A stretch of DNA of 64,000 nucleotides, taken from Bolinopsis microptera. Taxonomy: Eukaryota > Ctenophora > Tentaculata > Lobata > Bolinopsidae. The translations under genes were made by a program, and so were the position numbers. Under the pieces are notes generated by a model that did not search any database, had not been told where the DNA came from, and was given only the letters and a program-made list of their open reading frames with translations. Below, in pieces: positions 8,883 to 51,959 of the stretch (positions are counted from its first letter, which is position 1; each line of letters begins with the position of its first letter). The stretch is from contig NC_087075.1 in NCBI RefSeq assembly GCF_026151205.1, positions 9,727,303 to 9,791,302 on the forward strand, read 5' to 3'.

Positions 8883-10442
8883 ATGTCCGGTATCCCAATC
8901 AGAAATTACAGCCTTCGTGACAGACCTAACAGTGCAAAAGCAAAATGTTCTACCTGTGTATCACTAAGTCTTGAAAACGACAATTTGAGGAGACAAATTG
9001 CTCGTCTAACCAAACTTGCCCAAGGCTCAGGCCATGACAAAATTGCGGTTCCATTCTCTTGCGGGGACAATGTTCTTATCTCTGAACATGAATCAGAAAC
9101 TCAAAACTGTGAAGTTAGCAGTGTGACTGAACTTAATAGCAACCCATCTCTTGTGAATTCTTCTGATGTTAACAAACAATCTTCAACCAGTGTTAACGTT
9201 GTGGATAAGTCCATCAATCCATATCATGATTTGAGTCGAGGTGTATTCAGGTTTGTTGATACTCTCAAGTTGGATATGGAAACACAATACACACAAACGT
9301 TTAACAATAGGGCTGTAGCATACTATGGGGACAAACCCTTATTAAAGTCTATTTTAGAACGTTTACGCTCACAGTTCCCAAGTCTGATATTTAACAGCGC
9401 CATGATCACTAAGTATGAAAATGGCAAGCAAGGAATACCATTCCATTCAGATGATGAGAGGTCCATATCACCAGGCTCCATGATTACCACCATATCGTTA
9501 GGAGCAACAAGAGTCCTCAGTTTTAGGTCTAAAAGCAAAGTCCACGTTGCCAATCTTACTCTCTCCCATGGCGACATAATGATTATGACCAGAAAATCTC
9601 AGGACAGCTTTGAACACAGCCTTATTCAGGACCAAACTGATGACATGAGAATTAGCATTACTCTGCGCCAGATTGATGGCAGTGCAACCTTGTCTGCTCC
9701 ACCCGATACCTCAAATAAGCCTTTCGTTACCGCAAGAGAAACTGAACCCTCAATCAAAGGGAAATCATCACCCAACAAAATCACTCATAAGAGCACCGTA
9801 CCCCCTGCTTCAGTCAAAAGCAAATCCCTTGCTGTGTATGTTAGCTCAAGCATGTTCTCCAAGTTAGATGCTACAAAACTATCCTCTGCTCATCAAGAAG
9901 CACATGTATTTCACTATCCTGGTGGCATTGCAAACGGTATCAATGAACGCTTCCACTCAGATGAAAGAAAGAGGTCAATTGATGCAAATAATGTGAAGAC
10001 CATCGTACTCATGTGTGGAACTAATGATGTGGACTTAATCCTAGAGAATCCTCGACACATGAGGAATAGATTATTGTCACCCGATGACTTCACAGGAAAA
10101 GCAAAGGCCCTTGATAACACCAATCGCTCTATTGATAATCTGATCCAGTCACTTCACTCGTGGGCTCCAGCTGCAAAAATTAAGATCATAAACATTTTAC
10201 CAAGAGAAAGTTTTGCTAGAAATAAAGTGATAAATGACTTTAATATCTTTTTATCTAAGATTCCTTCCAAATACTCGTTTGTTAGCTTTATACCCACAGA
10301 GATGAATCGATTTTTGTTTAGTGATAGATCTGGATTTAGGAAATCATCTTGTTTTAGTAGATTTGGGGAAGACAATGTGCATCTAAACAGCGATGGTATC
10401 TTTAAACTAGCAAAGCACATCAAGTACCATGCTCACCATTGA
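8883..10442 (+). CDS. Retrotransposon A ORF1: coiled coil + AlkB-like dioxygenase + SGNH esterase
   Basis: This is an intact 519-residue ORF. Residues 22-45 hold a CSTC motif and a short predicted coiled coil. Residues about 115-265 match the AlkB fold of Fe(II)/2-oxoglutarate dioxygenases: the tract ITKYENGKQGIPFHSDDE carries His188 and Asp190 of the iron triad, His245 (FEHS) is the third ligand, and Arg256-(x5)-Arg262 is the 2-oxoglutarate/substrate arginine motif. Residues about 316-515 look like an SGNH/GDSL hydrolase: Ser block at 321-323, GTN at 379-381, Asp497-x-x-His500. Esterase domains are known in ORF1 of CR1-type elements. AlkB proteins remove alkyl groups from nucleic acids. That this protein demethylates or protects the element's RNA is inference. 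All key residues of both enzymes are present. Confidence 0.88.
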   Translation: MSGIPIRNYSLRDRPNSAKAKCSTCVSLSLENDNLRRQIARLTKLAQGSGHDKIAVPFSCGDNVLISEHESETQNCEVSSVTELNSNPSLVNSSDVNKQSSTSVNVVDKSINPYHDLSRGVFRFVDTLKLDMETQYTQTFNNRAVAYYGDKPLLKSILERLRSQFPSLIFNSAMITKYENGKQGIPFHSDDERSISPGSMITTISLGATRVLSFRSKSKVHVANLTLSHGDIMIMTRKSQDSFEHSLIQDQTDDMRISITLRQIDGSATLSAPPDTSNKPFVTARETEPSIKGKSSPNKITHKSTVPPASVKSKSLAVYVSSSMFSKLDATKLSSAHQEAHVFHYPGGIANGINERFHSDERKRSIDANNVKTIVLMCGTNDVDLILENPRHMRNRLLSPDDFTGKAKALDNTNRSIDNLIQSLHSWAPAAKIKIINILPRESFARNKVINDFNIFLSKIPSKYSFVSFIPTEMNRFLFSDRSGFRKSSCFSRFGEDNVHLNSDGIFKLAKHIKYHAHH

Positions 10443-10577: not shown

Positions 10578-11861
10578 ATGACAAATATTCACAACTCAGC
10601 TGACAAATTTCATAACCTTTGCATTGGTCATGGTCACTGTAACATTCAAGGTGGTCTCCTAAATTTAGCTAAAAGTAATGAACTTACTCAACTCATTCGA
10701 GATCATAAGCTAGACATACTTTCCCTAAATGAGATGAATCTTAATGATACTATTGACACAGACACCATAAATATTCCTTCCTCCTTCAACATTATGCGAT
10801 GCGACAGGCCAAACAGTTCTAGGGGTGGTTGTGGCTTAATGATAAACAAAAAACTAGCTTACACAGAATTAGTTATGGATAGTAAGCTTGATAACATTGA
10901 AGCATTATGGGTGAAGCTTAAGAATAGCAAGATCAATGTTTGCTGCTTCTATCGCTCTGGAAATTATTGCAGTGTTGATAACTTTATTGAGTACATTAAT
11001 TTTTGCATGAAAAAATTGAACGGGAAAAAGGTTATCTGGATTGGGGATATAAACATTGACCAGAATAATATCTCATCCACCCAGTACAAAAAATTAGATA
11101 TGACCTTGAGATGTTACAATCTAGTTCAAACCATTCAAGGGATAACTAGAGTTGCTAAACGTGGAGACAATTTTACCCAGACTACTATTGATGTAATATT
11201 CACTAACTGTTTAAATGCAGATTTTGTTCAATCTTCTGTTCTTGATGACCGTATTGGGGATCATCAAGCTATTATGTGTGAGATAGATTGTAAAGTATCT
11301 ATAGCTCCTAAATTTGAAAAGGTTGAAATTAGAAATCATTGTAAACGTAATGTTAAACAATTCTTAGACTATCTAGATACCTGTTCTGATTACAGTCCAC
11401 TATTGGAAAGTACAGATGTTGAAGCTATCACTGCTGGCCTTTGTCATCATATTGAACAGGCATATGCAACCTTCTTCCCTTGCAAGACCATAGAAAGGCA
11501 TGAAAAGTTCATACATAAACCTTCTACTGAACTTTTAAATGCCATTAATCATACACATTTTCTTCTAAAGAAATTCCGTAAAAAGAAGGATAAGAGAGAC
11601 AATGGAAGTTGCAATAAATGTGGGATATGTAGCAAATGTATAAAGTGTAATGAGGCCTGGGATTGCTACAAGATTCAGAGAAATATTAGAAATAAATTAG
11701 CTAAAACCTGCAAAACGGCTAATGTAATCGATGATGAACTACAAGTTAAAAGTGCTAAGAATGATCTTAAAGGGGTATGGAAAACTATCAAACTGGCATC
11801 AAATATGACCCCTGGTACAACTAATTGTCAAACTATCAATGAGAATGATCCTGAGCTATTT
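10578..11861 (+). pseudogene. Retrotransposon A ORF2, 5' part (APE endonuclease and linker)
   Basis: The frame opens at the ATG and carries the APE-like endonuclease: the Asn motif HCNIQGG near residue 24, a Glu in SLNEMNL near 52, WIGDINID near 155 and the DRIGDHQA motif near 227. A cysteine-rich linker CNKCGICSKCIKC follows. The true frame is interrupted after codon 428 (11859-11861) by the self-insertion starting at 11862, and the same frame resumes at 12936. The frame continues by chance to 11918 inside the insertion. The product would be an endonuclease without RT. Confidence 0.85.
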
Positions 11862-12931
11862 ATATTTGGAATAATGTTCCAACAGATCTACGAAATCTGC
11901 CCGATGTTAAAAGCTTAAGTGATTCGTATAAGAAACAGCTACTCTCATCTATAACAACAGACCCTAATTATACCGTCGACAATTCATATGACAAATTTTA
12001 CACTGCAATCATAGTCGACGATAACTAAGTATCTTCTAATTCTTTTAAATCTGAGGCATATATAATTGATGTATCGAAAGGATTTTCCCTTTTTTACCAC
12101 CTTACCATTTTGATTGATTTTGCACATGACTGACATGTTTTAACTGGAGGAAGGGTTCGCACAGTGGTAGTTTTATAAACCACTTTTAATTTATTGACCT
12201 ATTATACCTAGTGGTAGTTTTATAGACCACATTTAATTTATTTACTTATTATACTTAGTATTTATTTTTGGTGACTGTATCACCCAGTTTTAACATTTGA
12301 TAATTGTACAGTTTATTGACGACACATTGACTGAATGTTATTTTATATTCTAATTTATATTCTAGATATTTTATTTATTTTTCAACAGACGACAACTTCC
12401 TGTTTTTTCTTCTATATTAGTTACTCATATCTCTTTTACAGACTTTTTTACAAGGACATTGACAGATGATACTCACATTAGGCATTCATTATTGCATCTA
12501 AATTATTTCACTTGCATTAGGTTTAGAAATTTATTCTCTGGTTAACAGATTTCAGATGTTCAATTAATTTGTAGTATGACAGTAAGGTATATAAGAAGTT
12601 ATTTAATTTTGCTTGGGCTATTATATTGACTATTGAGGTTTAATGATGATATGGAATTTGAATTCTATATAAATTTACACTATGTGGTTGGGGCATTTTG
12701 CATAGTAAATATGGTTACTACTCCTATATATCATATTATTTGATTGGTATTCGATTTCTGATTATTTCTCTAGGAATATGATTATTATATCTCAATTTGG
12801 CTTTAGGTAGGGTGCCCCGCTAAAAGAACTGGATTCTTCCAGGAAGCATCCCGTGCACAGACCTTGGTCTACATATATATTAAATTATTAACCATTCATT
12901 CTGTATGTGCACGAAAATTTATTTCAATCAA
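11862..12931 (+). mobile_element. 5'-truncated self-copy inserted in ORF2 of element A
   Basis: This 1,070-bp block is about 99% identical by eye (roughly a dozen differences) to 14488-15557, the last codons and 3'UTR of element A. It is flanked by ATTT at 11858-11861 and ATTT at 12932-12935. Removing the block and one ATTT restores the reading frame exactly. It is therefore a 5'-truncated retrotransposition of the same family into the element, not a pair of LTRs. It keeps the TGG (Trp) codon that is TGA at 14490 in the host copy, so it came from a different, less damaged source element. Confidence 0.85.
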
Positions 12932-12935
12932 ATTT

Positions 12936-14651
12936 AACTTTCATTTTGCAAATGTTGGATCAAGATTACAAAATCAGGCCCCCAATATTGAAAGAGTTAG
13001 TTTTACTGATTTTTTACCTCCTAGAACTTCTAACATCTCATTTGATAGATTCCAAGAAATAAATGAAACTGATATCCTAATGTATGTCGAAACGCTCAAG
13101 AATGACAAGGCCTCATATGACGATGTGCCTCTATTTTTACTTAAGCAAGCTGTACCACACATAGTTGAGCCACTGACCCATATTGTCAATTTGAGCCTTA
13201 ATACAGGTGTTGTACCAACACTTTGTAAAAAAGCTAGAGTAACTCCCATCCATAAGGCAGGAATGAAAGATGATCCTAATAATTACAGGCCAATATCCAT
13301 CCTTCCACTTGTAGGAAAACTTATAGAATACTTTGTCGGCAAGCAACTCACTGATTACATGGAAGAGAACAAACTTTTCATCCGGCATCAATATGGCTTT
13401 CGGAAAAATCACTCCACAACTTATTTGATGTACGATCTGATGGACGAAATATATATGAGTAAATCTAAGTCTTATAAACCAGGAATCATCTTTCTTGATC
13501 TTAAGAAGGCCTTTGACACAGTGAATCATGAAATATTGCTTCAAAAATTGGCATATTATGGAATTGGTGGCATTGCTTTAACCTGGTTTAAGAACTTCTT
13601 ATCTTGTAGATATCAATGCACTAGGATCAATGGCAAATTAAGTTCATTTTTAGAAGTTCTGAGTGGTGTACCACAAGGAAGCATCATTGGGCCTATATTA
13701 TTTAGTATCTTCATAAATGACATCATTTATGCCTGTAACCTATCTAAGCCCTTTCTATTTGCAGATGATGGTGCACTATTCTTTGATCAAACCTGCAGAA
13801 GCACATTTATAAACATGAAAATAGAACTTATGACAATCTTTAAATGGCTCAGTGTAAATAAATTATCACTCAATGAAAAGAAGACTGAATTCCTATTGTT
13901 TGATTCTGTTGATCAACATGATGAATTAACCATTGAATGTAATGAGGTAACTTTCACAATCAAGGAGTGCAAAGAGACAAAATATCTTGGCCTCATTCTA
14001 GATAGTAAATTAAACTTCAAAAGCCATGTAGATTATATTATTAAGAAGGTCATGAAGAGAATTGGTGCCATGTATAGAAGTAAAGCACTGCTACCCATTA
14101 AATATAGGAAAATGTTTGCCAATGCACTCATGTTGCCACAATTCGATTATTTAGACACGATCTATTGTAGAGCTGGCAAGACAAAACTTGCTGAACTTGA
14201 CACTCTGTACAAAAAGGTAGCCAAAATAGCTCTCAACGTTCCACAAACAGAGAGCAGCCTTAATGTTTATAGAGGCATGAAATGGTTACCACTCCATCTT
14301 AGACGGCAACTCCATCTGTCAAATTATATGTATGTATTAATGTTTAGAATCATCCATGACAATTGTCCTACAAACTTTATGAACAAATTTAGTTACATAT
14401 CAGGAGGTAGTAGGAGCGGCGAAAGCTGCAACCTATATGTTAATAGATCAACATCACATAAAAACTTTCAATACTTGGGGGCAAAATGTTGAAATAATGT
14501 TCCAACAGATCTACGAAATCTGCCCGATGTTAAAAGCTTAAGTGATTCGTATAAGAAACAGCTACTCTCATCTATAACAACAGACCCTAATTATACCGTC
14601 GACAATTCATATGACAAATTTTACACTGCAATCATAGTCGACGATAACTAA
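12936..14651 (+). pseudogene. Retrotransposon A ORF2, 3' part (reverse transcriptase)
   Basis: This continues the ORF2 frame after the self-insertion. RT motifs in order: NNYRPISILP, QYGFRKNHST, FLDLKKAFDTVNH, GVPQGSIIGP, and the catalytic LFADDGALFF, followed by a thumb-like region ending LGAKC. A TGA at 14490-14492 replaces the Trp that the inserted self-copy retains. After it the frame continues 52 codons to TAA at 14649-14651. ORF2 therefore has two lesions, the insertion and this nonsense mutation, and the copy cannot supply its own RT. Confidence 0.85.
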
Positions 14652-15557
14652 GTATCTTCTAATTCTTTTAAATCTGAGGCATATATAATTGATATATCGA
14701 AAGGATTTTCCCTTTTTTACCACCTTACCATTTTGATTGATTTTACACATGACTGACATGTTTTAACTGGAGAAGGGATTCGCACAGTGGTAGTTTTATA
14801 AACCACTTTTAATTTATTGACCTATTATACCTAGTGGTAGTTTTATAGACCACATTTAATTTCTTTACTTATTATACTTAGTATTTATTTTTGGTGACTG
14901 TATCACCCAGTTTTAACATTTGATAATTGTACAGTTTATTGACGACACATTGACCGAATGTTATTTTATATTCTAATTTATATTCTAGATATTTTATTTA
15001 TTTTTCAACAGACGACAACTTCCTGTTTTTTCTTCTATATTAGTTACTCATATCTCTTTTACAGACTTTTTTACAAGGACATTGACAGATGATACTCACA
15101 TTAGGCATTCATTATTGCATCTAAATTATCTCACTTGCATTAGGTTTAGAAATTTATTCTCTGGTTAACAGATTTCAAATGTTTAATTAATTTGTAGTAT
15201 GACAGTAAGGTATATAAGAAGTTATTTAATTTTGCTTGGGCTATTATATTGACTATTGAGGTTTAATGATGATATGGAATTTGAATTCTATATAAATTTA
15301 CACTATGTGGTTGGGGCATTTTGCATAGTAAATATGGTTACTACTCCTATATATCATATTATTTGATTGGTATTCGATTTCTGATTATTTCCCTAGGAAT
15401 ATGATTATTATATCTCAATTTGGCTTTAGGTAGGGTGCCCCGCTAAAAGAACTGGATTCTTCCAGGAAGCATCCCGTGCACAGACCTTGGTCTACATATA
15501 TAATATTAAATTATTAACCATTCATTCTGTATGTGCACGAAAATTTATTTCAATCAA
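14652..15557 (+). other. 3'UTR of retrotransposon A
   Basis: About 900 bases of AT-rich non-coding sequence follow the ORF2 end and are nearly identical to 12021-12931 in the self-inserted copy. The end is a non-repetitive TTTCAATCAA, unlike the hexamer repeat tail of retrotransposon B, which supports treating A and B as separate families. Confidence 0.75.
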
Positions 15558-18750: not shown

Positions 18751-19796
18751 CTAATTATGTCTTATCAGGTGAGTAAAAGGTGCCAATTCTTCTAATAATT
18801 CTGGAATATAGTAGTAGTCATAGTCAAGCGTTGCTTGACGAACGCCGGGATTTCCCGGCCCGGGAAATAAGAAAACTAAGCACATCACACGTGCTCGAGA
18901 TATTGCTAGGTAGAGTTTAGCAAGACACACCGGAGTGTTGTAAAAACGACATAACACTACAACTACAGGCCACTCAGCTGAGTAGCTGTGTGAAGCACGA
19001 CACACTGTTATATTATATGTGTTGTGTGCGTCTTTAACACGATTAACAATATCAATCACATCATCATTTAAATCATTATCAATATAGACTACCGCTACCT
19101 CTAAGTTTTCTACGATATTTCTACAGTCACATAATTTGATCAATTCTTTGTTAACAATATTAAATATCAATTCATCATTACGTATATTAAAAACATGAAA
19201 CTTTGTTAATGGGCCCCGAATAAAATGCCCTGAATCTTGCATTAAAATTTCTTGATTAAAATTTAGTAGGTAATAATCTCTAATTATACATAAAATATTG
19301 GACAAATCGCACGTGTTCCGCAAATTCTGCGTCAACGTAACAAGTTGATCTGAATTCAATTTTTTACCAATTAGACCAATAATCCTACTATAAAAATTCT
19401 CAATGTCATTTGTAAAGCAAGTTTCCCAATAACTCTGCATAAAATCACACGCTACAATTACAGTGTTGTTAACTGATAACATTATTAGTGTGTTTACTAA
19501 TGTCTGTAATAAGGACGTTGGTATCGAATAGTTAATACTATTAAATACACACTGCACATCATCAAGTAGCACATGGCAGCAACTTAGTTGTTTGAGTCTA
19601 TCTGTTATCCATTTTATGGACCATTGTCCCGGATGTTTTAATGTTATCTCTACAATCACAGCACTACAGGTACTCTTTAGTATCAATCCAGATACATCAA
19701 ACCATATTTCATCATTGCTCACAGATAACAACTCATAATCCACACCAGCTTTCTTACAAATATCTTGATACGTTGTAGAGTTGTTGTTACCTCCAC

Positions 19797-22700
19797 ACAA
19801 TTCACAACACCCGATCAAGTGGCCATTAAAATCCAACTCAGCTCGACAGAACTCATTCTGGCAGCTTCGTACATGGATATAAATGGGCCGGTACCGCCAC
19901 AAGAAACATCACCTCTAGCAAAATACGCAAATGATAACAACATCCCGCTCATTATAGGGTCGGACACCAATTCCCACCACACCCTTTGGGGGAACAAGGC
20001 ATGCAATAAAAGGGGAGAGGAGCTTCTTGACTTTCTCTCCTCCCTAGGGCTGTCATGTGCCAACAAAGGATCATCCCCAACCTTCCTCAACTCTCGAGGC
20101 CACAACTCAATTATCGATCTCACAATAACAAACCAGTTGGGAGGAGATCTCATTAGTAACTGGCATGTTAGTGACCTTTACTCCAACTCTGACCATCGCT
20201 ATATTATGTTCGATATAACTACAGGGCCAAAGAAGGAACCCAAACAGATCCGACTAATCAAAAACACTGACTGGGACAGATTTGATGAGATCCTATCGAA
20301 TAACCCCAACCTTAACAACACACAAATCAACACTACGACTGAAATTGATCACAAAATAGACATAATCAATACTGCACTAAAGGAAGCCTTCGAGGAGGCA
20401 TGCCCCATTACTTACATCTCAAGTTCCGTCCGCAAACCCCCCTGGCTAACTCAAGAAGTAGAGGAAGCACAGAGGGGAATAAGACAAAAACTGATTACTG
20501 CCCGCAAAAAGAAGACTGATGCCCTGTGGCTCGCTCTCAGAGAGAGCAACAAACAATACAACAGACTTATAACCAACTCCCAGCGTAATGCCTGGAGAAC
20601 TTTTTGTCAGGAAACAGAGTCTGTTAAGGAATCCGGAAGGATGAATAAGATTCTGAAATCCTGTAACGACAACAAACATACACTAGAAGCCGTTTACAAA
20701 CCAAACGGAGACATCACCAAAAATGCAGAGGAGACATTGGAGGTCATGACACGAACCCACTTCAAGGATAGTGTCACTGATCCGCCAGTGCCTCCACCTG
20801 GTCCTCTACCAATCACCACCACCTTACTCAATACCATCTACAGCCCAGACAGAATCGAGGAGGCTCTTAAATCCTTCGATCCATTGAAAGCTGCTGGACC
20901 CGACACCCTCAAACCTATCATCATACAGAAAGCTTGGACACACATCAAAGACATCACCAGAACCATTATGACAAAAAATCATGAAACCCAACACATTCCA
21001 ACTTTGTGGAAAGAATCCCTTGGAATCTTTCTCCCAAAGCCTGGAAAAACTGACTACAACCAACCAAAGTCATTTCGCACTATCACCCTTTCGCCAGTGA
21101 TGTTAAAACTACAGGAGAAGGTGATACTGTGGCATATGCAACACGACCTTAATATCGCTAAAGACATCAACAAACGACAATTTGGCTTTAAGAAAGGATG
21201 TTCAACCGAAGCAGCCCTTCATAAAGTTACTCACACCATCGAGCGCAGGATAGCTAAGAAGGGATATGTCCTAGGCGTCTTTCTAGATATAGAGGGAGCT
21301 TTTGATAATGTCTCTTTCAAGGCTATTTCTGACGCTATCAAGACCACGAAAGTGGATCTGGCCACAGCACAATGGATTATCAACATGGTAACTAACAGAT
21401 TCATCACATTAAATCATAAGGATAAGTCGACAAGGGTTCGGATCCGGAGAGGGTGCCCTCAAGGTGGCATCCTTTCCCCTTTCCTCTGGAACCTGGTAGT
21501 CGATGATCTCCTGGCCTACACCGCAAGAGACATACCAGGTTATCTGCAAGCTTTTGCAGACGATCTGCTCTCTCTAGCGGAGGGGAATGATTTAGACATC
21601 ATCTGGAACAGAACACGCAAAACCATCAACACAATAGAAAAATGGTGCCAAACCAAAGATCTATCCATAAGCGCACTCAAAACACAAATAGTCATGTTTA
21701 CCTGGAATAAGAAATGGACACTAAGACCTGTGGTGGTGGGTAACACCACTATAGGTCTATCCAAATCTGCCAAATTCCTAGGAGTGACCCTCGACAGCAA
21801 GCTCAATTTCAATGAACATATCACCAATACCACCAAAAAAGCTACGGCATCCCTTATGCAATGTAGAAGAGCTGTCGGCCCCACTTGGGGTATGAGCCCT
21901 AAAACATGCAAATGGATGTACACCGCTGTCATCAGACCTATTCTATCATACTGCTGTAGTATATGGATTAGAGCAACCCAAACAGACACCAACGCGAGGA
22001 AGTTCAAACGAGTTCAGGCATTGGCATTGAGAATGATGTCTGGTGCCATGCCTAGTACTCCCTTCATCGCACTGAACCACCTCACTAACACTCCAGATAT
22101 CATACTTTTCCTGAGAGGTGAAGCAGCAAAGGGCACAGCCAGGCTTCAAGCCTATGGAAGCCTAACCCTCGAAACTATCGCCCCCAGAAAAGGTACCATC
22201 ACAACTCACACCACTATCAACAAAAAATTCATGGTAGATCTCAACATACCACCCAAAGCAGAGAGAGACCTATCTATACCAACCATGATGCTTGAACGAC
22301 GCTTCACGGTCACCACTCCTGGAGCTGACAACATTGGATATAGAGGCTCACTCCAAAACACCATCAACAACATCCCCAGTGAAACCATCACCTGCTACAC
22401 AGACGGGTCACGCACAGACTCAGGTAGCGGGGCTGGTTATATTATCACCACAGACAACAACAACACTACACTAGATGAAAGATCATTCAAGCTTCCCGAT
22501 TATTGCACCGTTTATCAAACAGAACTCATTGCCATCATCGAAGCTTGTAAATATCTATCAACTTATACAAACACACACATCATCATATGGTCAGACAGTC
22601 TCTCCTCTATTCAAGCCATATCCTCACCTTCAACGAGGAGTAGGACTACTAGAGACTGTTACGACACCCTCAATACACTCGGATCCACTAACACCTTAGA

Positions 22701-23493
22701 GATCAGATGGATAGCTGCACACATTGGATTGTGGGGTAATGAAAAAGCAGACGAGCTGGCCAAAAATGGTACAACCAGTGAATCCACTTTGAATTGCCCA
22801 ATTCCACAATCTTACATCAAACGCCTGATCAACGACAAAGTCACAAAACTTAATCAAGAATCATGGATTACTGATGGTCCCAGACACACTAAACTGACAC
22901 TTGGACATAAAAACATCAACATCATCAAAAATCTCAACACTACACTCAGTAACAACAGAAAAAATTATAGAACTGCAGTGCACCTCATCACGGGACATTG
23001 TGGCCTCAACAAACACCTACACACCATTCGCAAATCAGACACAAGTGCTTGTCCTAAGTGCGGCGACGAAGAGGAGACTGTCTCACACTTTCTCGGACAG
23101 TGCCCGGCTATTGCCCAAATAAGAGGTCAATATTTCCGGGACTACTACCTCTCTGTCAATGACATATTCGACAACCAACACATCTCCACCATTGTCAACT
23201 TTACAAACCACACTAAACGCTTAGCGGTGCCAGAGGAGTTGGACCAGACAGGTGTAACATAGCGACTACTTTAACGCCGTCTTGTTTCGCCTCTCTCTTC
23301 CACACTCAACCACCACTTAAGCGTTTATCTATGACACACCCCACAACACTTACCATCATCCTTGATTACACATCTTGATTCCACTGGCATCCTCCCACAG
23401 GACTGCCATACCCCAGAGGTAGGCAAAGCATTCATATGCTATCCTCTCGTGGGCCAACCAGGCCCAGCCTCTCTAAAAAAAAAAAAAAAAAAA
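19797..23493 (+). mobile_element. Non-LTR retrotransposon with RNase H (I/R1/LOA-type), 5'-truncated
   Basis: The 3,697-bp element ends in an A tract of about 19 bases (23475-23493). It is flanked by ACCTCCAC at 19789-19796 and at 23494-23501, an 8-bp target-site duplication. It lies on the + strand, opposite in orientation to the helicase gene it interrupts. The 5' end falls inside the endonuclease domain, so the copy is dead on arrival for mobility although its ORF is still open. Presence of RNase H and the poly(A) tail separate it from the CR1-like elements nearby. Confidence 0.9.
19798..23262 (+). CDS. ORF2 of the RNase H-bearing retrotransposon (EN fragment-RT-RNase H-Zn knuckle)
   Basis: The element's own frame is open from 19798 for about 1,154 codons; the upstream ATG at 19765 belongs to helicase-gene DNA and is accidental. 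Domains in order: the second half of an APE endonuclease (IIGSDTNSHHTLWG, SNSDHRYIMFDI); RT with GFKKGCSTEAAL, LDIEGAFDNV, GCPQGGILSP and the FADD box in LQAFADDLLSL; RNase H with YTDGSRTDSGSGAG, the Glu of YQTELIAI, WSDSLSSI and AHIGLWGNEKADELAK; and a CPKCGDEEETVSHFLGQCP zinc motif. It lacks the N-terminal half of the endonuclease. Preservation of a 1.15-kb-codon frame without stops argues for recent insertion. Confidence 0.9.
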   Translation, partial: QFTTPDQVAIKIQLSSTELILAASYMDINGPVPPQETSPLAKYANDNNIPLIIGSDTNSHHTLWGNKACNKRGEELLDFLSSLGLSCANKGSSPTFLNSRGHNSIIDLTITNQLGGDLISNWHVSDLYSNSDHRYIMFDITTGPKKEPKQIRLIKNTDWDRFDEILSNNPNLNNTQINTTTEIDHKIDIINTALKEAFEEACPITYISSSVRKPPWLTQEVEEAQRGIRQKLITARKKKTDALWLALRESNKQYNRLITNSQRNAWRTFCQETESVKESGRMNKILKSCNDNKHTLEAVYKPNGDITKNAEETLEVMTRTHFKDSVTDPPVPPPGPLPITTTLLNTIYSPDRIEEALKSFDPLKAAGPDTLKPIIIQKAWTHIKDITRTIMTKNHETQHIPTLWKESLGIFLPKPGKTDYNQPKSFRTITLSPVMLKLQEKVILWHMQHDLNIAKDINKRQFGFKKGCSTEAALHKVTHTIERRIAKKGYVLGVFLDIEGAFDNVSFKAISDAIKTTKVDLATAQWIINMVTNRFITLNHKDKSTRVRIRRGCPQGGILSPFLWNLVVDDLLAYTARDIPGYLQAFADDLLSLAEGNDLDIIWNRTRKTINTIEKWCQTKDLSISALKTQIVMFTWNKKWTLRPVVVGNTTIGLSKSAKFLGVTLDSKLNFNEHITNTTKKATASLMQCRRAVGPTWGMSPKTCKWMYTAVIRPILSYCCSIWIRATQTDTNARKFKRVQALALRMMSGAMPSTPFIALNHLTNTPDIILFLRGEAAKGTARLQAYGSLTLETIAPRKGTITTHTTINKKFMVDLNIPPKAERDLSIPTMMLERRFTVTTPGADNIGYRGSLQNTINNIPSETITCYTDGSRTDSGSGAGYIITTDNNNTTLDERSFKLPDYCTVYQTELIAIIEACKYLSTYTNTHIIIWSDSLSSIQAISSPSTRSRTTRDCYDTLNTLGSTNTLEIRWIAAHIGLWGNEKADELAKNGTTSESTLNCPIPQSYIKRLINDKVTKLNQESWITDGPRHTKLTLGHKNINIIKNLNTTLSNNRKNYRTAVHLITGHCGLNKHLHTIRKSDTSACPKCGDEEETVSHFLGQCPAIAQIRGQYFRDYYLSVNDIFDNQHISTIVNFTNHTKRLAVPEELDQTGVT

Positions 23494-24664
23494 ACCTCCA
23501 CCGAATTTAAAAACCACAACTTTCCGTCCTGGATCAAATTGAGCGAGATCAATTAATTTTCGTGATAACAACACAGTTTTACCAGTTCCTGCTGGTCCGT
23601 TGATCCACAGCAGCTTTTCTTTCGATTTTAAGATCCTTTCTTGTTCCGCTGTAAAATACTTAACACCTAAACATTCTCCAATATCAATATCATCAGTTGC
23701 TTTAATCACTCCTGGATTTATGCTCTTTTTGCACTTCGATTTTTTATCATTTTGCAGTAAAGTTATTTCTCCTTCTCTCAGCTCCTTGTCTATTCGCATC
23801 ACAGTGTCTGCTAGACTGAACATAGATTCATCTGGGAAATCAACTTCAGTACAAGATATTGTTAACAAAATATGCTTTGTTTTTATCTGCCTCTCTTTAC
23901 GACCAAACGATATACCACACATCAAAATGTGTGGTATGTTTGGTCGAATTTTCATTGATATGTTGACATTCCACCAATTAGCAAAGTTATCGATATCTTC
24001 TTTAAAGATAATTGAATTCATTTGCTCGCTGTCATCTATTAGCAGGGAATCAGAGCTCAAATAGGGAAAAGCCGTGTAAAGAAAAACCTTTAATTCCGGA
24101 TGAAGAGCTCGAATAAGCTTCTCGACCCGATTTCTCTGAATTAACGATCCCTTGAATGCTATGGTGGGGTTCCCATCAGATGCTGGGTTCTTAACTTCAA
24201 TGACTACAAAGAAGCCCTCTCCGATAATCAAAAAATCACATTCCTCAGAGTTTTTAGGCCTCTTACACTGTCCACAATGCCTCCTATCATGGTTCCTGTC
24301 ACACAAAGTATACTGGTAATGTGTGAACTTAAACCCGTGAAGAACAATCAGGCGTTCTTTTAACATCTCCAATGCACGGTAGACTATCACTTCGGCTTCA
24401 TAGTTCTGCTGTTTTGTTTTGTTATCTGTTATACGAGGATCTTCGTTTATCGTGTTGTCCGGATATCGATCTTTGTAGGTTTGTTGGGGAGCTGGGGGAC
24501 TCATAACAGAGAGTTCCTCTTCTGTTGAACAGTAGAAAGTGGCTATTTCTTTTCCTCTTCGTTCGTAGTCCGATAGGCTAGTTACCGTTTCTGTAAAGTT
24601 ATTGCTATTAAGTTGAGCGAATGTGTCAAGATCATAATTTTGAAATGGAAGAATTTGTATGCCG

Positions 24665-26079
24665 TTTAAGGGGAGATACACCAAAAACGTTTTTGCTCCG
24701 AACATCGATTTTATTTTATATTATGGTTAAATAGACAAAAAGAATAAGATTGCACACCTTCAAAATTTTCTAAAAATATTCCCTCATCGAGAAAAAAAAT
24801 ATTTTTCTTTTTCAAAAATTTTTAAAATTTGGAGAAGTCTGTCACTGTAATACCGATAGTTCGGCCATTTTAAAAGTTGTTTGGCTGATTGTTTTACTGA
24901 ACATTACTTACACTCCTTACAAAACAACCCTTTAAAGGATTATATATTTGAACGATAAATGACGAAGTTACAGACCAAACAAGGTCGACAAAATAAAAAT
25001 TGAAATTTTTCCCACTTCTAAGGTTGTACATTTCACCAATCACCCGGGTCAGCAGATATCGCTTCAAAAATTCTTGTGAGTGTAGCTGATGATCATATCA
25101 AACTTTTTGGAGTAGGATTTCTTTCAGATTTGAGTTTTAAGCTATGCAACGTGGCCTCAAAAATTCATCGTAAAAAAGGGCAAAAAAGGCAGATTTAAGG
25201 CTTAAAATGCCTATAACTCAAAAAGTATCAGTTTTTTTGAAATAATTTTTACAGAATCGTAATCAGCTTGGTAAGACGAATCTTTTAGTACCAAATAAGT
25301 GCTTTAAGAAGACAGATTGTCTTAAATAATTTTCTAGCTCGAACACAAGGGCCCCCCCCCCCCCCCCCCCCCCTTGTATAAATTTTGTACAAATTGTACA
25401 CATTTTTTTACAAATTTTGTGTCTTTAAATATTATAAATGTCGTACTAAAAGATTCGTCTTACCAAGCTGATTACGATCCTGTAAAAATTATTTCAAAAA
25501 AACTGATACTTTTTGAGTTATAGGCATTTTAAGCCTTAAATCTGCCTTTTTTGCCCTTTTTTACGATGAATTTTACTAAGTCGTTTGAGGCCACATTGCA
25601 TAGCTTAAAACTCAAATCTGAGAGAAATTCTGTTCCAAAAAGTTTGATATGATCACCAGCTACACTCACAAGAATTTTTGAAGCGATATCTGCTGACCCG
25701 GGTGATTGGTGAAATGTACAACTTTAGAAGTGGGAAAAATCCCAATTTTTCTTTTTTCACCTTGTTCGGTCTGTAACTTGGTCATTTATCGTTTAAATAT
25801 ATAATCCTTTAAAGGGTTGTTTTGTAAGGAGTGTAAGTAATGTTCAGTAAAAAAATCAGCCAAACAACTTTTAAAATGGCCGAACTATCGGTATTACAGT
25901 GACAGACTTCTCCTAATTTTAAAAATTTTCGAAAAAGAAAAATATATTTTTTCTCGATGAGGGAATATTTTTAAAAAATTTTGAAGGTGTGCAATCTTAT
26001 TCTTTTTGTCTATTTAACCATAATATAAAATAAAATCGATGTTCGGAGCAAAAACGTTTTTGGTGTATCTCCCCTTAAA
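24665..26079. repeat. Large palindrome duplicating the helicase gene's start region
   Basis: The left arm 24665-25291 and right arm 25443-26079 (about 630 bp each) are near-perfect inverted copies. The spacer of about 150 bp contains a C22 run at 25352-25373. The left arm includes the first 14 codons of the NERD-helicase gene and its upstream DNA. The right arm carries the same ATG (26039-26041) and codons pointing the opposite way, and hits a stop two codons after the arm ends. The arms differ by small substitutions and one short indel, so the duplication is not brand new. Confidence 0.9.
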
Positions 26080-33679: not shown

Positions 33680-36600
33680 TTACTCGTATCCCGAAGGGTT
33701 AGCTCCGATACTCCAGTCTGTTTCAGCAGATATTGGCTCTGAGATTGAGCTGTCCGCTCCAGTGACCTGGGGTAATTGGTGTGAAATTTGTTGACAAATC
33801 CATTTTTGAGCTTCACTCCTTGTCATGCTACTACTATCCCAAACCCTGACCCTAACTATAACCCTAAAGATATCTACCCTAAAGTCTACCCTTAGTAGAC
33901 TTTAGGTTAGTCCGCCTAATTTAGTAGAGGCTCTGTATTTTTTATTGACTACATATTCGATAAAAAAGCTAAACATATTTCTGCAAATAAACTCCGTCAA
34001 TTATAAACAATTAATTGATATTAATTATTTCATTAGCTAGGCTGTAGTAATAACAAACATTAAACATTAACTTATCATGACGTACACACAAACAGTGAAA
34101 TTAGTGATAGAATGAGAAGTCATAGAAAAGTTGTCGACGTGTTGAAAATTTGTGAAATTTCATCCCCCTAACATTAAGAAAGTGATTGGTGTTGGACTTC
34201 AATAAGCTAACATTCTTCTGATTGCAGTGTGAAAAGTAACTAGATAAAACTGCTGTTATTGTTCAAGGTACAGGACGTGTATAACTGAACTAAGACTGGG
34301 ATAACAGATAATTGAATTATTTTTTACAACGTTTTTAATTATTCATAAACTCAATCGCTTTCATGTTATTTTAACCGCTGAAAATTCATCTCAACAAATC
34401 AACAAACCAGTACGATTATAAAGTGATAATGAGTCACAACTAAAATCAACATGCTGGAAAAAAATAAACTATTGAGTACAGTAACTCACCACTCCAATTT
34501 GGAATCTGTTAAGGGACCGACAATCTCGGTAGAAGAGAACCTTAAGACACCGTGCCATCAGTCTTTTACCTTCCTCAACATTCATATTAGGATTCTCTAA
34601 GGGGGAAGTGGGTAAGTTAAATAACTTAGAAACTAAGCTATCAGTCTCATACCTTTATCCACACTTATAATTCATAATTTTTGGTGTGATCCGTGAATAT
34701 TTCATCTAGGCATTCGAATAATTTAATCATCATAAAAGTGTAAACAAACCTTCCATAGCTTTTCTCATCATTGGTTGAGCAATGTAGGAGCCAAAGCCTG
34801 TAGCTACACTTTTATCTGTAAATGAGACACCGATCTTATCCACGTATCCCAGGTAGGGCTTACCTGAAATATTAATTGTGTGGATCCTGGTTTATGTTTC
34901 TCTCTGTGTAAAACAAATCATGTTTAAAATGTTTGGTGAAACTTTGCTGTTAAAATTGTAAACAATTTTTTATATAATAATTCATTAATTTAAGTGGTTT
35001 AGTAGTTGATAAGTGAAAAGAAACTAAATGAAACGTATAATAGTAAATCAAAGGTATACATCTATCAAAAAGATAAATATTTACAAGATAAGTCAACAAA
35101 AAACTTTGTATGTACAATGTACATGTGTTTTGTATCCTCAGCCGCAGAATATTATATGAGTCACATGCACACATCAATTTGTTCTTTTTATCTCTATTTG
35201 TTATCAGTACTTTGCTTATCTCTATTTGTTATCAGTACTTTGCTTATCTCTATTTGTTATCAGTACCTGAGTAATCTCTGCCAGCCACAACTATGGTGTT
35301 CCACAGAGGGTTCATCTTACTTCTTCTGTTATATAACACACAACGTAACCAGTTGTGTATAGAGGGTGCATCTCTGTATACTCCATCACCTGTTAGGTCA
35401 CGTGAAAATTATTATTCTTTATTTATTTACATAATATTATTAGTAGTTATATCATATATGGTAGTTATATTAAATAGTTACTAGTTATATTATATCAATA
35501 TTCTCTGTACTGTGTACACTTCTGCAGTAATTTATACTTTAAACAATAAAAATCAAAAGCTAAAGGTAGAGATTTAATTAACATTCCACAGTCCAGACTT
35601 AAAAATAGTATTTAGCCTCCACAAGATAAAACTTTGAAAGTCACCTACCGACAACATCATCATCAATAGTCTGCTGTTCCAGTAACTTCATTATGAACTG
35701 AAAGTCTGCATAGTCTCCAAATCCACCAATAATGGTACTATCATTCACTTTCATCAACCTGATAAAAAAGCATTTTTAAATAAAACAATTACAACCAATA
35801 ATCATTTAATTTCAATTGAACACTTCTCGTTGGGTTGACATTGCATTGAACGTATAAAGAAGATGCACCATAACAAAATACCAATATAATCTTTTCTGGT
35901 TTGTGTTTGTAACCTGCTAATATCCCTAAAACGGGCAAGAGAACCATAGGACCCGAGAGTGTCAGCTGCAATCACCACACCATCAGTACACATTATACCC
36001 AGCACGGATGTACCTGAAAAGAGCTAAAATAACTAACCTTTATAACTAACCTTTATAACTAACCTTTATAACTAACTTTATAACTAACCTTCATAACTAA
36101 CTTTATAAATAACCTTTATAACTAGCCTTTATAACTAACCTTTATAACTAACCTTTATAACGAACTTTTATAACTAACCTTTATAACTAACCTTCATAAC
36201 TAACCTTTATAACTAACCTTTACAACTAACCTTTATAACTAACCTTTATAACTAGCCTTTTTAACTAACTTTATAACTAACCTTTATTACTAACCTTTAT
36301 TACTAACCTTTATAACTAACCTTTATAACTAACCTTTATTACTAACCTTTATAACTAACCTTTATAACAATCTTTTTTAACTAACCTTTATAACTAACCT
36401 TTATAACTAACCTTTATAACTAACCTTTATAACAAACCTTCATAACTAACCTTTTTAACTAACCTTCATAACTAACCTTTATAACTAACCTTTATAACTA
36501 ACCTTTATAACTAACCTTTATAACTAACCTTTATAACTAACCTTTATAACTAACTTTATAACTAACCTTCATAACTAACTTTATAAATAACCTTTATAAC

Positions 36601-39290
36601 TAGCCTTTATAACTAACCTTTATAACTAACCTTTATAACGAACTTTTATAACTAACCTTTATAACTAACCTTCATAACTAACCTTTATAACTAACCTTTA
36701 CAACTAACCTTTATAACTAACCTTTATAACTAGCCTTTTTAACTAACTTTATAACTAACCTTTATTACTAACCTTTATTACTAACCTTTATAACTAACCT
36801 TTATAACTAACCTTTATTACTAACCTTTATAACTAACCTTTATAACAATCTTTTTTAACTAACCTTTATAACTAACCTTTATAACTAACCTTTATAACTA
36901 ACCTTTATAACAAACCTTCATAACTAACCTTTTTAACTAACCTTCATAACTAACCTTTATAACTAACCTTTATAACTAACCTTTATAACTAACCTTTATA
37001 ACTAACCTTTATAACTAACCTTTATAACTAACTTTATAACTAACCTTCATAACTAACTTTATAAATAACCTTTATAACTAGCCTTTATAACTAACCTTTA
37101 TAACTAACCTTTATAACGAACTTTTATAACTAACCTTTATAACTAACCTTCATAACTAACCTTTATAACTAACCTTTACAACTAACCTTTATAACTAACC
37201 TTTATAACTAGCCTTTTTAACTAACTTTATAACTAACCTTTATTACTAACCTTTATTACTAACCTTTATAACTAACCTTTATAACTAACCTTTATTACTA
37301 ACCTTTATAACTAACCTTTATAACAATCTTTTTTAACTAACCTTTATAACTAACCTTTATAACTAACCTTTATAACTAACCTTTATAACAAACCTTCATA
37401 ACTAACCTTTTTAACTAACCTTCATAACTAACCTTTATAACTAACCTTTATAACTAACCTTTATAACTAACCTTTATAACTAACCTTTATAACTAACCTT
37501 TATTACTAACCTTTATAACTAACCTTTATAACAATCTTTTTTAACTAACCTTTATAACTAACCTTTATAACTAACCTTTATAACTAGCCTTATAACTAAC
37601 TTCATAACTAACCTTTATAACTAACCTTTATAACTAACTTTATAACTAACCTTTATGACTAACCTTTTTAACTAACCTTCATAACTAACCTTTATAACTA
37701 ACCTTTATAACTAACCTTTATAACTAACCTTTATAACTAACCTTTATAACTAACCTTTATAACTAACCTTTATAACTAACCTTTATAACTAACCTTTATA
37801 ACTAACCTTCATAACTAACCTTTATAACTAACCTTTATAACTAACCTTTATAACTAACCTTTATAACTAGCCTTTATAACTAACTTTATAACTAACCTTT
37901 ATTACTAGCCTTTATAACTAACTTTATAACTAACCTTTATAACTAACTTTTTAACTAACCTTTATAACTAACCTTTTTAACTAACCTTTATAACTAACCT
38001 TTATAACTAACCTTTATAACTAGCTATAGCCTTATAACTAACCTTTATAACTAACCTTTATAACTAACCTTTATAACTAACCTTTATAACTAACCTTTAT
38101 AACTAACCTTTATAACTAACCTTTATAACTAGCCTTATAACTAACCTTTATAACTAGCCTTATAACTAACTTTATAACTAACCTTTATGACTAACCTTTA
38201 TAGCTAACTTTTTAACTAACCTTTATAACTAACCTTTATAACTGACCTTTATAACTAGCCTTATAACTAACTTTATAACTAACCTTTATAACTTACCTTT
38301 ATAACTAACCTTTATAACTACCTTTATAACTAACTTTATAACTAACCTTTATAACTAACCTTTTTAACTAACCTTTATAACTAACCTTTATAACTAACCT
38401 TTATAACTAGCTATAGCCTTATAACTAACTTCATAACTAACCTTTATAACTAACCTTTTTAACTAACCTTTATAACTAACCTTTATAACTAACCTTTATA
38501 ACTAGCTATAGCCTTATAACTAACTTCATAACTAACCTTTATAACTAACCTTTATAACTAACCTTTATAACTAACCTTTTTAACTAACCTTTATAACTAA
38601 CCTTTATAACTAACCTTTATAACTAGCCTTATAACTAACTTTATAACTAACCTTTATAACTAGCCTTATAACTAACTTTATAACTAACCTTTATAACTAA
38701 CCTTTATAACTAACCTTTATAACTAACCTTTTTAACTAACCTTTATAACTAACCTTTATAACTAACCTTTATAACTAGCCTTATAACTAACTTTATAACT
38801 AACCTTTATAACTAGCCTTATAACTAACTTTATAACTAACCTTTATAACTAACCTTTATAACTAACTTTTTAACTAACCTTTATAACTAACCTTTATAAC
38901 TGACCCAACTGACCTTTATAACTGACCTTTATAACTAGCCTTATAACTAACTTTATAACTAACCTTTATAACTTACCTTTATAACTAACCTTTATAACTA
39001 CCTTTATAACTAACTTTATAACTAACCTTTATAACTAACCTTTATAACTAGCCTTATAACTAACCTTATAACTGACTTTAAACCTAATAACTAACTAAAC
39101 ATATATTGAAATTTCAATCATTGTTTACTATCTCAAGTTGGGTACTGTATAAAGTACCTGTTACAATAGGTTGCAAAGTATGTTTCCTAGGTCCTGAGAG
39201 AGCTGCTTCTTCCTGCCAAAATTCTGCCACCTTCTCTTTCATGTCCACCATTCTTGGCAGATGCATGTGTGTTGAGTACATTCCCGCCAT
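33680..39290 (-). CDS. PSMB4: Proteasome subunit beta type-4 (PSMB4), 7 exons
   Basis: Exons in gene order: 39290-39158, 36013-35914, 35758-35649, 35389-35267, 34863-34750, 34596-34490, 33766-33680. All junctions are GT-AG and in phase, giving 257 residues, close to the usual length of about 264. Diagnostic blocks: VTGTSVLG near residue 45, GVVIAADTLGSYGSLARFR, SKMNPLWNTIVVAG, VATGFGSYIAQP and FYRDCRSLNRFQIGV. PSMB4 is the non-catalytic beta-7 subunit of the 20S core; its extended C-terminus clamps the two half-proteasomes together. The N-terminal stretch of about 40 residues should be the propeptide. A TCTACAG just before the ATG suggests a possible 5'UTR intron. Intron 1 (36014-39157) is almost entirely satellite. 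A hAT-like element starts 186 bases upstream of the ATG. Confidence 0.93.
35178..35268 (+). repeat. Short 26-27-bp tandem repeat in PSMB4 intron 4
   Basis: Three copies of a unit of the form TCTATTTGTTATCAGTACTT (plus TGCTTA) run up to the splice donor of PSMB4 exon 4. The last copy contributes the GTAC donor sequence itself. Confidence 0.75.
36024..39075. repeat. 13-bp satellite array (about 3 kb) in PSMB4 intron 1
   Basis: The array consists of a 13-bp unit CTAACCTTTATAA with variants (CTAACTTTATAA, CTAGCCTTATAA and others), repeated over about 3 kb. A higher-order repeat of 478 bp is visible: the variant string starting ACTAACTTTATAACTAACC occurs at 36071, 36549 and 37027 with the same order of variants between. 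Right of about 37560 the array is less regular. The unit is in the antisense direction relative to PSMB4. Confidence 0.95.
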
Positions 39291-40034
39291 ATCTGTAGAT
39301 TATATGTCAGTTTTAGCTCTATTGAATTTGAGTGGGTTTATCATAGTTTAGACAAAGAAAAATTAGCTTCTCCACAAAATTACCCTATTCACTGTACAGC
39401 ATACACTTTTGATAAATCAGGTTTACAGTAAATTTGGGCTTCACTGTATTTGGGGGGGGGGGCGGGGGGGGCCAACAGTGGCGTAACGAAGGGCCCTGCT
39501 GACCCCGCTGTGCAGGGGGGCGCCGTCTTATGGGGGCGCCAAATCTTCGTTTGAATGTGGGACAATTTCGAAAACTTAGAATTAGAATTAGAATTAGAAT
39601 TAGAATCAAATTTACACAGCAATACAATAAGAATAAAAATAATTTAAGAAGCTTCAATCTGCTGTGCAGGACATTCAAGTCAGTCGAAAACTGTTAGCAG
39701 AACACCCTTCTAGGGACATAAGGATATAGTATGTAAACATAATGAGTAATAAAATAATGAGTGATAAAATAAGATATGATTTAACAGTGAACTGTGGGCA
39801 TGAAGGTAACAATTAAGATTACATAGATGCCCACTTTGGGATTACGTTAGTAATGTTATTTACAGTTATATACAGAGAAGTATAGAACAATAATAGATTG
39901 GCAATGATAAAAAATGGGAACGAATAAAGGAGATGTTTAAAGTTCTATACTTCTGGAAATACCTAGGTCATATATAACGCAGGGGGCCTTTCCACCCGAC
40001 AAAAACTCCAGCCCCATAAAATTTGTTTCAGTTG

Positions 40035-43031: not shown

Positions 43032-43207
43032 TTAAAAGGAGGACAAATCTATACGTTTCTTCTTCAAGCAATTTAAATAAAATTCATGACATTTAGTTTT
43101 ATGTCATGCTGATTTATTTGTGACTTAATAATTTAAAATGTGATTCTTTGATAAAAGTATCAAATACTCATTAAACTACAGAACTTTCTACAATCTGAAT
43201 GGAGAGA

Positions 43208-44944: not shown

Positions 44945-45319
44945 GATGTTGAGTTGGTTGAGTTGGTTGTAGATAAATAGATTGATTGAAGTCGATTGAA
45001 GTTGATTGAAGTTGATTGAATAGATTTGATACCTCCAATTACATTACATTTTTGTCATGTTGGTCATTTTGGTCATACCTCAATAAATGTAATATATTTG
45101 TAGTGTTGTAATTAGTTTAAAACTTAACTAAAGTACTAGCAAAAATGCGCGTTTTACTCTAGATACACACTTTTTTAGAGATTTTACCGGCGTATCCTCT
45201 AAAATCACCTAATTTGTTCAATTTTAGGGAGGGGCACCAAAAGGGGAGGGGGCGCCAACAGGGGGGCGCCTTTTCGGCAGGGGGGCGCCAACAGGCAACG
45301 TTACGCCACTGGGGGCCAA

Positions 45320-51079: not shown

Positions 51080-51910
51080 TTAGAATTCAGTGAAATTTTT
51101 GTCATTCCATTCAGCACCATACCTGTTTTGGGCATTCATCAGTGACTTTTGTAATTTATTCTTAACAGAAGAACAAGAGGAATTAAAATTAAATGAGCCA
51201 ATTTTACAAAACTCATTCCACAGCCACGCTGATTTATAGATGAATTGTTTAGTTGGAGAAGGTGTGATTAACATATTGTCTTTCCTATGAGATATGGTGA
51301 ACAAAGAGAACATTGAAATTGGTACTCTTGTCTTAATTATCTTTAAAAATTCCATTAGGCAACGTAGTCTATATAGGTTCTCTACAGCTAGTAATTTATG
51401 TTTTGCAAATAGAGGTTTGGTAGACTCCTTAACATAAAAATCGCAACCCAAACGTTGGGAGCCGAACGGTCTAACTCTAGCACATGTTTTGAATTTGTCT
51501 ACATACCTTTTATGGTCTCCGAATAGAATTCTTATACATTTCTTCTGAGTAATAAATAGTGGTTTTAACTGGATATTAGGAATACCTCCCCACACAGAAA
51601 TAGCAAAACCGAGATGTGATTCAAAGAGAGAATGGTAAATTTGTTTATATAGTGATTCTGGTAAGCATTTCTTAATACGGTAGATGCGTCCACAAGCACT
51701 GCTTAGTTTTTTGTTAAGGGATTGTATGTGTGGTTTCCAACTTAATTTGTCATCAATAATTACTCCAAGGAATTTAATTTGACTAACACGCTTGATTACC
51801 TTGTTATTCATGGAGAGGTAATAGCTATCTATATCGGCGTCTAATTCATTATTGTTACGTTTATTTGGAGAGAGGTACATGTAACAGCACTTTTTTACAT
51901 TAAAACATAC
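51080..51910 (-). pseudogene. 5'-truncated non-LTR retrotransposon, RT C-terminal third
   Basis: The minus-strand frame ends at 51080. It encodes the post-catalytic part of an L2/CR1-like RT: IKFLGVIIDDKLSWKPHIQ, IYHSLFESHLGFAISVWGG, LFITQKKCIRILFGD and FYVKESTKPLF. The catalytic FADD region is missing. The frame can be read rightwards to 51958, but the last 45 or so bases belong to the 75-bp repeat also found at 46662 and 53738, so the true 5' truncation point is near 51910. It is the same superfamily as the element at 46806-49680. Confidence 0.75.
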
Positions 51911-51959
51911 TGAGCGTGCTGAATCACTACACTCAAACTTTAAGATTTTATAGTACATG

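Follow-up and report, generated by a model that had tools for sequence, protein, structure and literature searches.

AlkB dioxygenase and SGNH esterase domains are paired in ORF1 of LINE retrotransposons of the ctenophore Bolinopsis microptera

Results

Two LINEs with an AlkB-SGNH ORF1

An AlkB-like dioxygenase and an SGNH hydrolase are fused in ORF1 of a non-LTR retrotransposon of Bolinopsis microptera, as an earlier note on this DNA had claimed, and the fusion was confirmed by Pfam, by a PDB search and by the predicted fold. The earlier note understated the case: four lineages of LINEs carry the pair, and so do Helitron-type elements, the SGNH part being tentative in one of the LINE lineages (T3, see below). 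A chance motif was ruled out by Pfam, fold and recurrence. The stretch of DNA that was analysed, hereafter the window, comprises 64,000 nucleotides (NC_087075.1, positions 9,727,303 to 9,791,302) and contains two such elements, A and B, with the following features.

8883 to 10442, plus strand: ORF1 of element A, copy 1 (519 aa), with coiled-coil candidate, AlkB and SGNH
8949 to 9023, plus strand: predicted helix 23-47, a coiled-coil candidate that begins at a CxxC pair, from the secondary structure of a model with low pLDDT
9210 to 9680, plus strand: AlkB (2OG-Fe(II) dioxygenase) of element A, residues 110-266, with H188, D190, H245, R256 and R262
9329/9330, plus strand: site of the 51-nt gap of copy A relative to related copies (YxY lid motif)
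9816 to 10439, plus strand: SGNH hydrolase domain of element A, residues 312-519, with S323, G347, N381, D497 and H500
10578 to 11918, plus strand: ORF2 remnant of copy 1 of element A, an APE-type endonuclease; the RT was presumably lost at 11865/11866, judging from a repeat
12877 to 12931, plus strand: left 55-bp direct repeat, resembling a target-site duplication and 100% identical to its right counterpart
12932 to 15502, plus strand: 5'-truncated second copy of the element A family (RT and 3' UTR), with putative ends
15503 to 15557, plus strand: right 55-bp direct repeat
39584 to 45067, minus strand: element B, its probable extent drawn from the loss of identity to other copies
43208 to 44944, minus strand: ORF1 of element B (578 aa), unbroken, with CxxC/coiled-coil candidate, AlkB and SGNH
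43937 to 44371, minus strand: AlkB domain of element B, YxY lid motif present
43223 to 43777, minus strand: SGNH domain of element B
40035 to 43031, minus strand: ORF2 of element B, 998 codons from stop to stop and 912 aa from a TTG, with endonuclease and RT

The ORF1 sequences of A and B are 34% identical to each other. In the case of element B, the AlkB residues are H256, D258, H314, R326 and R332 and the SGNH residues S397, G421, N455, D553 and H556. ORF1 of element B matches the AlkB profile at 9.7e-21 and the GDSL profile at 1.7e-5; the latter match is below the cut-off, as the curated Pfam cut-off for GDSL is 32.9 bits and element A reaches 16.8 bits and element B 25.8 bits. By profile, the SGNH part also matches the solved ORF1 esterase of ZfL2-1 (PDB 4c1b) at 4.6e-4. 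The SGNH blocks that had been announced for element A were found with the catalytic Ser, Gly, Asn, Asp and His all in place. Structure prediction gave a usable model confidence for both domains, with 12 of the 15 ten-residue blocks of AlkB above 80, and the AlkB model has the double-stranded beta-helix fold. The helix 23-47 of the copy A ORF1, proposed as an N-terminal coiled coil, is a low-confidence prediction.

The window copy of element A is damaged. Aligned with copy L029 over 1560 positions it shows 14 mismatches, and a stretch of 51 nt is missing after window position 9329, hence 17 amino acids with the YxY lid motif. This motif is present in 12/12 other aligned sequences, cellular-looking genes included, and is directly followed by xG in 10 of these 12; the lid segment is retained by element B and by the sister copies L029 and L030. 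The AlkB domain of window copy A is incomplete without it. The "complete AlkB signature" of the earlier note therefore holds for the residues that were listed, all of which are conserved, but not for a copy that has lost a segment kept by its sisters. Elsewhere in the genome, family A has 20 full-length ORF1 matches at 94-96% among the 44 listed; all exceed the window copy in length, by 42-67 nt, and in 13 of the 20 cases the excess is exactly 51 nt. Eight A-type copies were fetched (L029 to L036); ORF1 is unbroken in two of them (L029 and L030) and broken in the other six. Copies L035 and L036 have insertions within the AlkB part of ORF1. Furthermore, ORF2 of copy A stops after the endonuclease; at 11865/11866 the sequence continues directly with the terminal part of ORF2 and the 3' UTR. 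The truncated second copy sits between perfect 55-bp repeats, which to us have the look of a target-site duplication.

For element B, 15 of the 40 matches listed cover the whole of ORF1 at 95-100%, the window copy being counted with them, which indicates recent activity. Its 3' end carries ATTCTA-type hexamer repeats, and copies L012 and L014 end likewise with different flanks; such 3' microsatellites are typical of CR1/L2 elements. Given these short tandem repeats, together with an ORF2 that combines an APE endonuclease with an RT and gave no RNase H profile match, the element appears to be a CR1/L2-like LINE, with an ORF1 protein (ORF1p) predicted to run from an N-terminal coiled-coil candidate through an ALKBH2/ALKBH3-like AlkB domain to an SGNH esterase. 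Over ORF2 and the 3' UTR (window 39584-43016) L012 and L014 are 97% identical to element B, whereas in the first 1010 nt of ORF1 the identity to B falls to 69-70% at the DNA level, which points to LINE families having exchanged their ORF1s.

Profile searches of the window gave no AlkB or SGNH match outside A and B. The RT frames at 46824-49170 and 51080-51958 are akin to those of PHD-type (T2) LINEs and, given this result, are probably 5'-truncated copies. The window also contains, at 19765-23262, a single frame of 1165 aa with endonuclease, RT, RNase H and a weak zf-RVT match, from a LINE of another superfamily. A minisatellite array with extreme strand asymmetry lies at 36029-39096 (GC skew -0.92 in 36001-38000), and two minus-strand frames, at 18751-19902 and 23473-24705, resemble NTPases/helicases on inspection by eye, GPAGTGKT being present in the second.

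Genome-wide spread of the AlkB-SGNH pair

The genome searched comprises 264.65 Mb in 232 contigs. The PF13532 profile search listed 151 matches, 150 of 587 first-look candidates being scored, and family A ranks below this list. Of the 151, 35 were examined (L009-L028, L038, L039-L051 and window B): 32 are in transposons and three (L009, L010 and L011) are cellular-looking. Copies were assigned to five types from the RT or Rep/helicase frame found alongside them, or from the similarity of their ORF1 to that of a copy with such a frame.

T1 (B, L012, L014, L021, L022, L038, L046, plus window A, L029 and L030): CxxC/coiled-coil candidate, AlkB, SGNH
T2 (L015, L026, L027, L039, L040, L041, L044, L047, L048): PHD-like finger (Pfam match below cut-off), AlkB, SGNH
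T3 (L017, L018, L023, L025, L028, L050, L051): AlkB, coiled-coil-like stretch, probable SGNH, distant RT
T4 (L013, L016, L019, L020, L024): Helitron-type; SGNH, Ala/Pro-rich linker and AlkB, ahead of a Rep-helicase
T5 (L042, L043, L045, L049): AlkB, SGNH; RT read for two (L052, L053)

The frames of three T2 copies are cut short (L027, L044 and L026, the last a 222-aa frame). PHD variants are said to have been described in CR1-like ORF1 by Kapitonov and Jurka in 2003, and would be comparable to T2. The RT of T5 was not found in L054. The SGNH of T3 rests on motifs and on weak Pfam matches (0.0079 for L018 and 0.057 for L023, with none at 0.1 for L017); its predicted structure is of low quality (pLDDT 50.7), and the top fold match, to a GDSL lipase, has an E of 0.14.

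In T4 the domain order is reversed compared with the LINEs, SGNH preceding AlkB. In L013 and L020, AlkB is followed within one frame by DUF6570, Helitron_like_N and PIF1, the last two matching at 3.7e-22 and 1.3e-20 in L013 and at 4.4e-22 and 9.3e-22 in L020; L016 has PIF1 in a later frame, and L019 and L024 were assigned by similarity only. As read from these frames, the AlkB-esterase pair is also carried by a DNA transposon, of Helitron type.

As for the cellular-looking genes, L010 is a single long frame that carries a GRGRGRG stretch in its N-terminal half. About 700 nt downstream of L011 lies a frame that matches the SGNH profile weakly (8.8e-5), which makes the cellular status of this gene less sure.

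The pairing was also looked at from the SGNH side. Among the 150 SGNH matches (PF13472) listed from 424 candidates, a list that misses most AlkB-bearing LINE ORF1s, 138 have no match from the likewise capped AlkB list within ~5 kb on the same strand (by eye). Many of these 138 are in frames of ~420-530 aa, a large esterase pool that perhaps includes AlkB-free ORF1s; such ORF1s are likely given the frames of about 480-520 aa among them. Hence, the AlkB-SGNH link is strong from the AlkB side but may be loose from the SGNH side, and the pairing may not be obligatory. Scans of viral contigs with the copy A ORF1 protein and with query A4 gave no relatives, nor did a scan of genome contigs with A4.

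Phylogeny of the RT and AlkB domains

A tree of 14 RT sequences, built without named reference clades, separates T1, T2 and T5 from T3 and RNase-H-type LINEs (91/91) and groups T2 with T5 (88/83). In the tree of 35 AlkB domains, T1, T2, T5 and the Helitron-type elements are split from T3 and the cellular ALKBH2/3 genes (97/98). L009 groups with human ALKBH2 (99/100), L010 and L011 are found near ALKBH3 (80/80), and the Helitron-type AlkBs stand weakly beside three T2 sequences (75/70). The cellular genes form one clade (86/86), so that a root placed there allows a single clade of all transposon AlkBs. Six constrained AlkB trees were compared in the AU test, and not one was rejected at 0.05, the lowest p being 0.0504 (T5 with the cellular genes); bp-RELL and c-ELW exclude two of them, those with T1 or T5 joined to the cellular genes. 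The AlkB tree would thus be compatible with one capture or with several.

Conservation and selection

The HxD...H iron triad and both arginines are kept in 35/35 aligned AlkB domains, cellular and transposon-borne (by eye; these are 35 of 45 rows, window A, near-duplicates and fragments being left out). The triad is likewise present in 13/13 rows of a smaller alignment, in which the RxxxxxR of element A corresponds to R256 and R262. An acid after HxD (E192) is found in all 13 aligned sequences, at what we take to be the position of the base-recognising acid. In the SGNH regions chosen, Ser, G-x-N and His are kept in 20/20 and DxxH in 17 of the 20 (by eye), the Asp being missing in all three T5 regions.

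Values of dN/dS were calculated by the Nei-Gojobori method. For AlkB they are 0.08 (L029/L046, family A), 0.12 (B/L014) and 0.24 (B/L021) in T1, 0.21 in both T2 pairs (L015/L039 and L044/L047), 0.05 in T3 (L017/L018), and 0.16 (L013/L020) and 0.31 (L013/L024) in the Helitron-type elements. The near-identical pair L043/L045, with few changes, gives 0.48 for AlkB and 0.77 for SGNH; the AlkB domains of L027/L040 and of L029/window A are too similar to be judged. For SGNH, dN/dS is 0.15-0.25 in five pairs and saturated in two, the values for L027/L040 (1.39, over 24 codons) and L029/window A (0.80, few changes) not being meaningful. The fusion recurs across families and is under purifying selection.

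Discussion

Proposed function

From the domains, their catalytic residues and fold, the selection acting on them and their recurrence, we infer, with moderate confidence, an activity, a substrate and two roles: the AlkB of ORF1p would keep the RNA or cDNA of the element free of m1A and m3C, and the SGNH part would anchor or remodel the RNP at membranes. ORF1p would coat the element RNA, and also the single-stranded cDNA during target-primed reverse transcription. AlkB would then oxidatively strip those methyl groups (m1A, m3C) which, on the Watson-Crick face, block reverse transcription or DNA synthesis, and the SGNH part would act on the RNP as proposed for the ZfL2-1 ORF1p. Both m1A and m3C are polymerase-blocking and are repaired by ALKBH2 and ALKBH3, the latter acting on single strands; the PDB titles of 3h8r, 3bty and 8jnr agree with these activities. 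Furthermore, human ALKBH2 and L009 have in common, before the YG motif, a VFGKW stretch, presumably the ALKBH2 duplex finger; it is missing from the T1 AlkBs, so that a single-strand preference is expected for them. Helitrons replicate through single-stranded DNA, and exposed single-stranded nucleic acid would be the substrate common to LINEs and Helitron-type elements. On these sequence grounds, the likely substrate is single-stranded RNA, cDNA or, for Helitrons, ssDNA.

The choice of m1A and m3C depends on the nearest solved relatives. In single-sequence searches with five transposon proteins, these were ALKBH3 for T1 B, T3 and T4 and ALKBH2 for T1 A and T2, and the AlkB-family chains matched were ALKBH2, ALKBH3, AlkB and, weakly for T3, ALKBH1; ALKBH5 and NMAD-1 were absent from them. 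Since the identity of the copy A ORF1 protein to ALKBH2/3, with the structures aligned, does not exceed 25-29%, the substrate is one that we infer from these relatives. The earlier note had proposed m1A or m6A as the marks erased; with ALKBH2/ALKBH3 and not ALKBH5/FTO as nearest solved relatives, m6A is the weaker part of that proposal, and an ALKBH5/FTO-like m6A eraser was set aside as first choice. The same comparison bears on an alternative that we consider unlikely, namely counter-defence, in which AlkB would erase m6A in RNA or 6mA in DNA, host marks for the silencing of transposons. The AlkB of an orchid Ty3/Gypsy element is reported to demethylate m6A RNA in vitro (PMC9289625), but its authors describe that protein as ALKBH5-like. 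A 13-row profile also reaches Caenorhabditis elegans NMAD-1, which is named as a DNA 6mA demethylase in the PDB, at 1.7e-4, and ALKBH5 at 0.0074, far behind ALKBH3 (1.7e-42), ALKBH2 (2.9e-38) and E. coli AlkB (4.5e-14), a ranking biased toward ALKBH2/3 by the three cellular ALKBH2/3-like genes among the 13 rows.

Rather improbable, in our judgement, is a mainly structural use of AlkB, with catalysis secondary, as the nucleic-acid-binding module otherwise missing from esterase-type ORF1ps. AlkB would then supply an RNA-binding domain where, according to Schneider et al. (PMC3905857), none of the esterase-containing ORF1ps in RepBase has a structural one. However, iron and 2OG residues kept in every one of the 35 domains and AlkB dN/dS values of 0.05-0.12 in deep comparisons argue for retained chemistry.

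Some members of the AlkB family have tRNA or protein as their target, and fold matches to ABH8 and ALKBH7 exist. It could accordingly be imagined that AlkB acts on host tRNA, mRNA or protein to the benefit of the element, or that AlkB and SGNH jointly remove alkyl/acyl adducts; these matches are, however, weaker than those to ALKBH2/3, and we hold this option to be improbable. A chance or dead fusion, in which a host AlkB exon was trapped in an old copy and is functionless, would suit the damage to window copy A and the six broken A-type ORF1s, but is refuted by the recurrence of the fusion, which numerous multi-copy families carry in frames that are open and under purifying selection, and is barely credible.

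The repair reading, in which AlkB clears m1A and m3C from the nucleic acid of the element, can be extended tentatively, and with clearly less confidence, to all types. AlkB and SGNH might be a two-enzyme module acquired or exchanged, within one animal lineage, by transposons that are unrelated to each other (LINEs whose RTs are distant, and order-reversed Helitrons), because both replicate via single-stranded nucleic acid that needs to be free of alkyl, and perhaps acyl, adducts at membranes; this would amount to a transposon-encoded repair system.

A LINE with its own putative nucleic-acid dealkylase, kept by purifying selection and present in many young copies, makes it possible to test whether transposition is constrained by alkylation damage to, or methylation of, the RNA or cDNA of a transposon. 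That LINEs and Helitron-type elements carry the same two enzymes offers a natural experiment on the features shared by these unrelated replication cycles. AlkB would also provide esterase-type ORF1 proteins, in which the absence of a structured RNA-binding domain had been remarked on, with a domain that handles nucleic acid. The presence of AlkB and esterase in several ctenophore transposon families suggests that these parasites chemically clean their own genetic material during copying.

Comparison with known systems

Cellular ALKBH2 and ALKBH3 are the closest proteins by sequence and fold and have identical catalytic residues; in the elements described here AlkB is, by contrast, fused to transposon domains. 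AlkB-bearing plant RNA viruses have, to our knowledge, neither an RT nor an esterase. These viruses (Alpha-/Betaflexiviridae and Closteroviridae, as named in PMC9289625) are likewise parasites with their own AlkB for RNA.

In the open PMC literature, with Repbase, Dfam and subscription papers outside its scope, the sole transposon-borne AlkB found was that of the Phalaenopsis orchid Ty3/Gypsy element (PMC9289625). It is also encoded by a retrotransposon and is active on m6A RNA in vitro; unlike the LINEs here, that plant element is of the LTR type and has an ALKBH5-like AlkB in a separate ORF, and an esterase is unmentioned for it. The discussion of that paper names RNA viruses as other AlkB-bearing parasites and does not name LINEs or Helitrons.

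The CR1/L2 ORF1p of the ZfL2-1 type (PDB 4c1b; PMC3905857) has an SGNH esterase and a coiled coil (here a candidate) and is likewise followed downstream by an endonuclease-RT ORF2; its esterase hydrolyses esters and binds negatively charged phospholipids and liposomes. In the elements described here, AlkB lies between the coiled-coil candidate and the esterase.

Finally, the GDSL/SGNH ORF3 of bdelloid rotifers is common to LTR and Penelope-like elements (PMC5408684, where AlkB is unmentioned). It is likewise a case of accessory enzymes shared across unrelated transposon classes, and here the pair of AlkB and esterase spans LINEs and Helitron-type elements.
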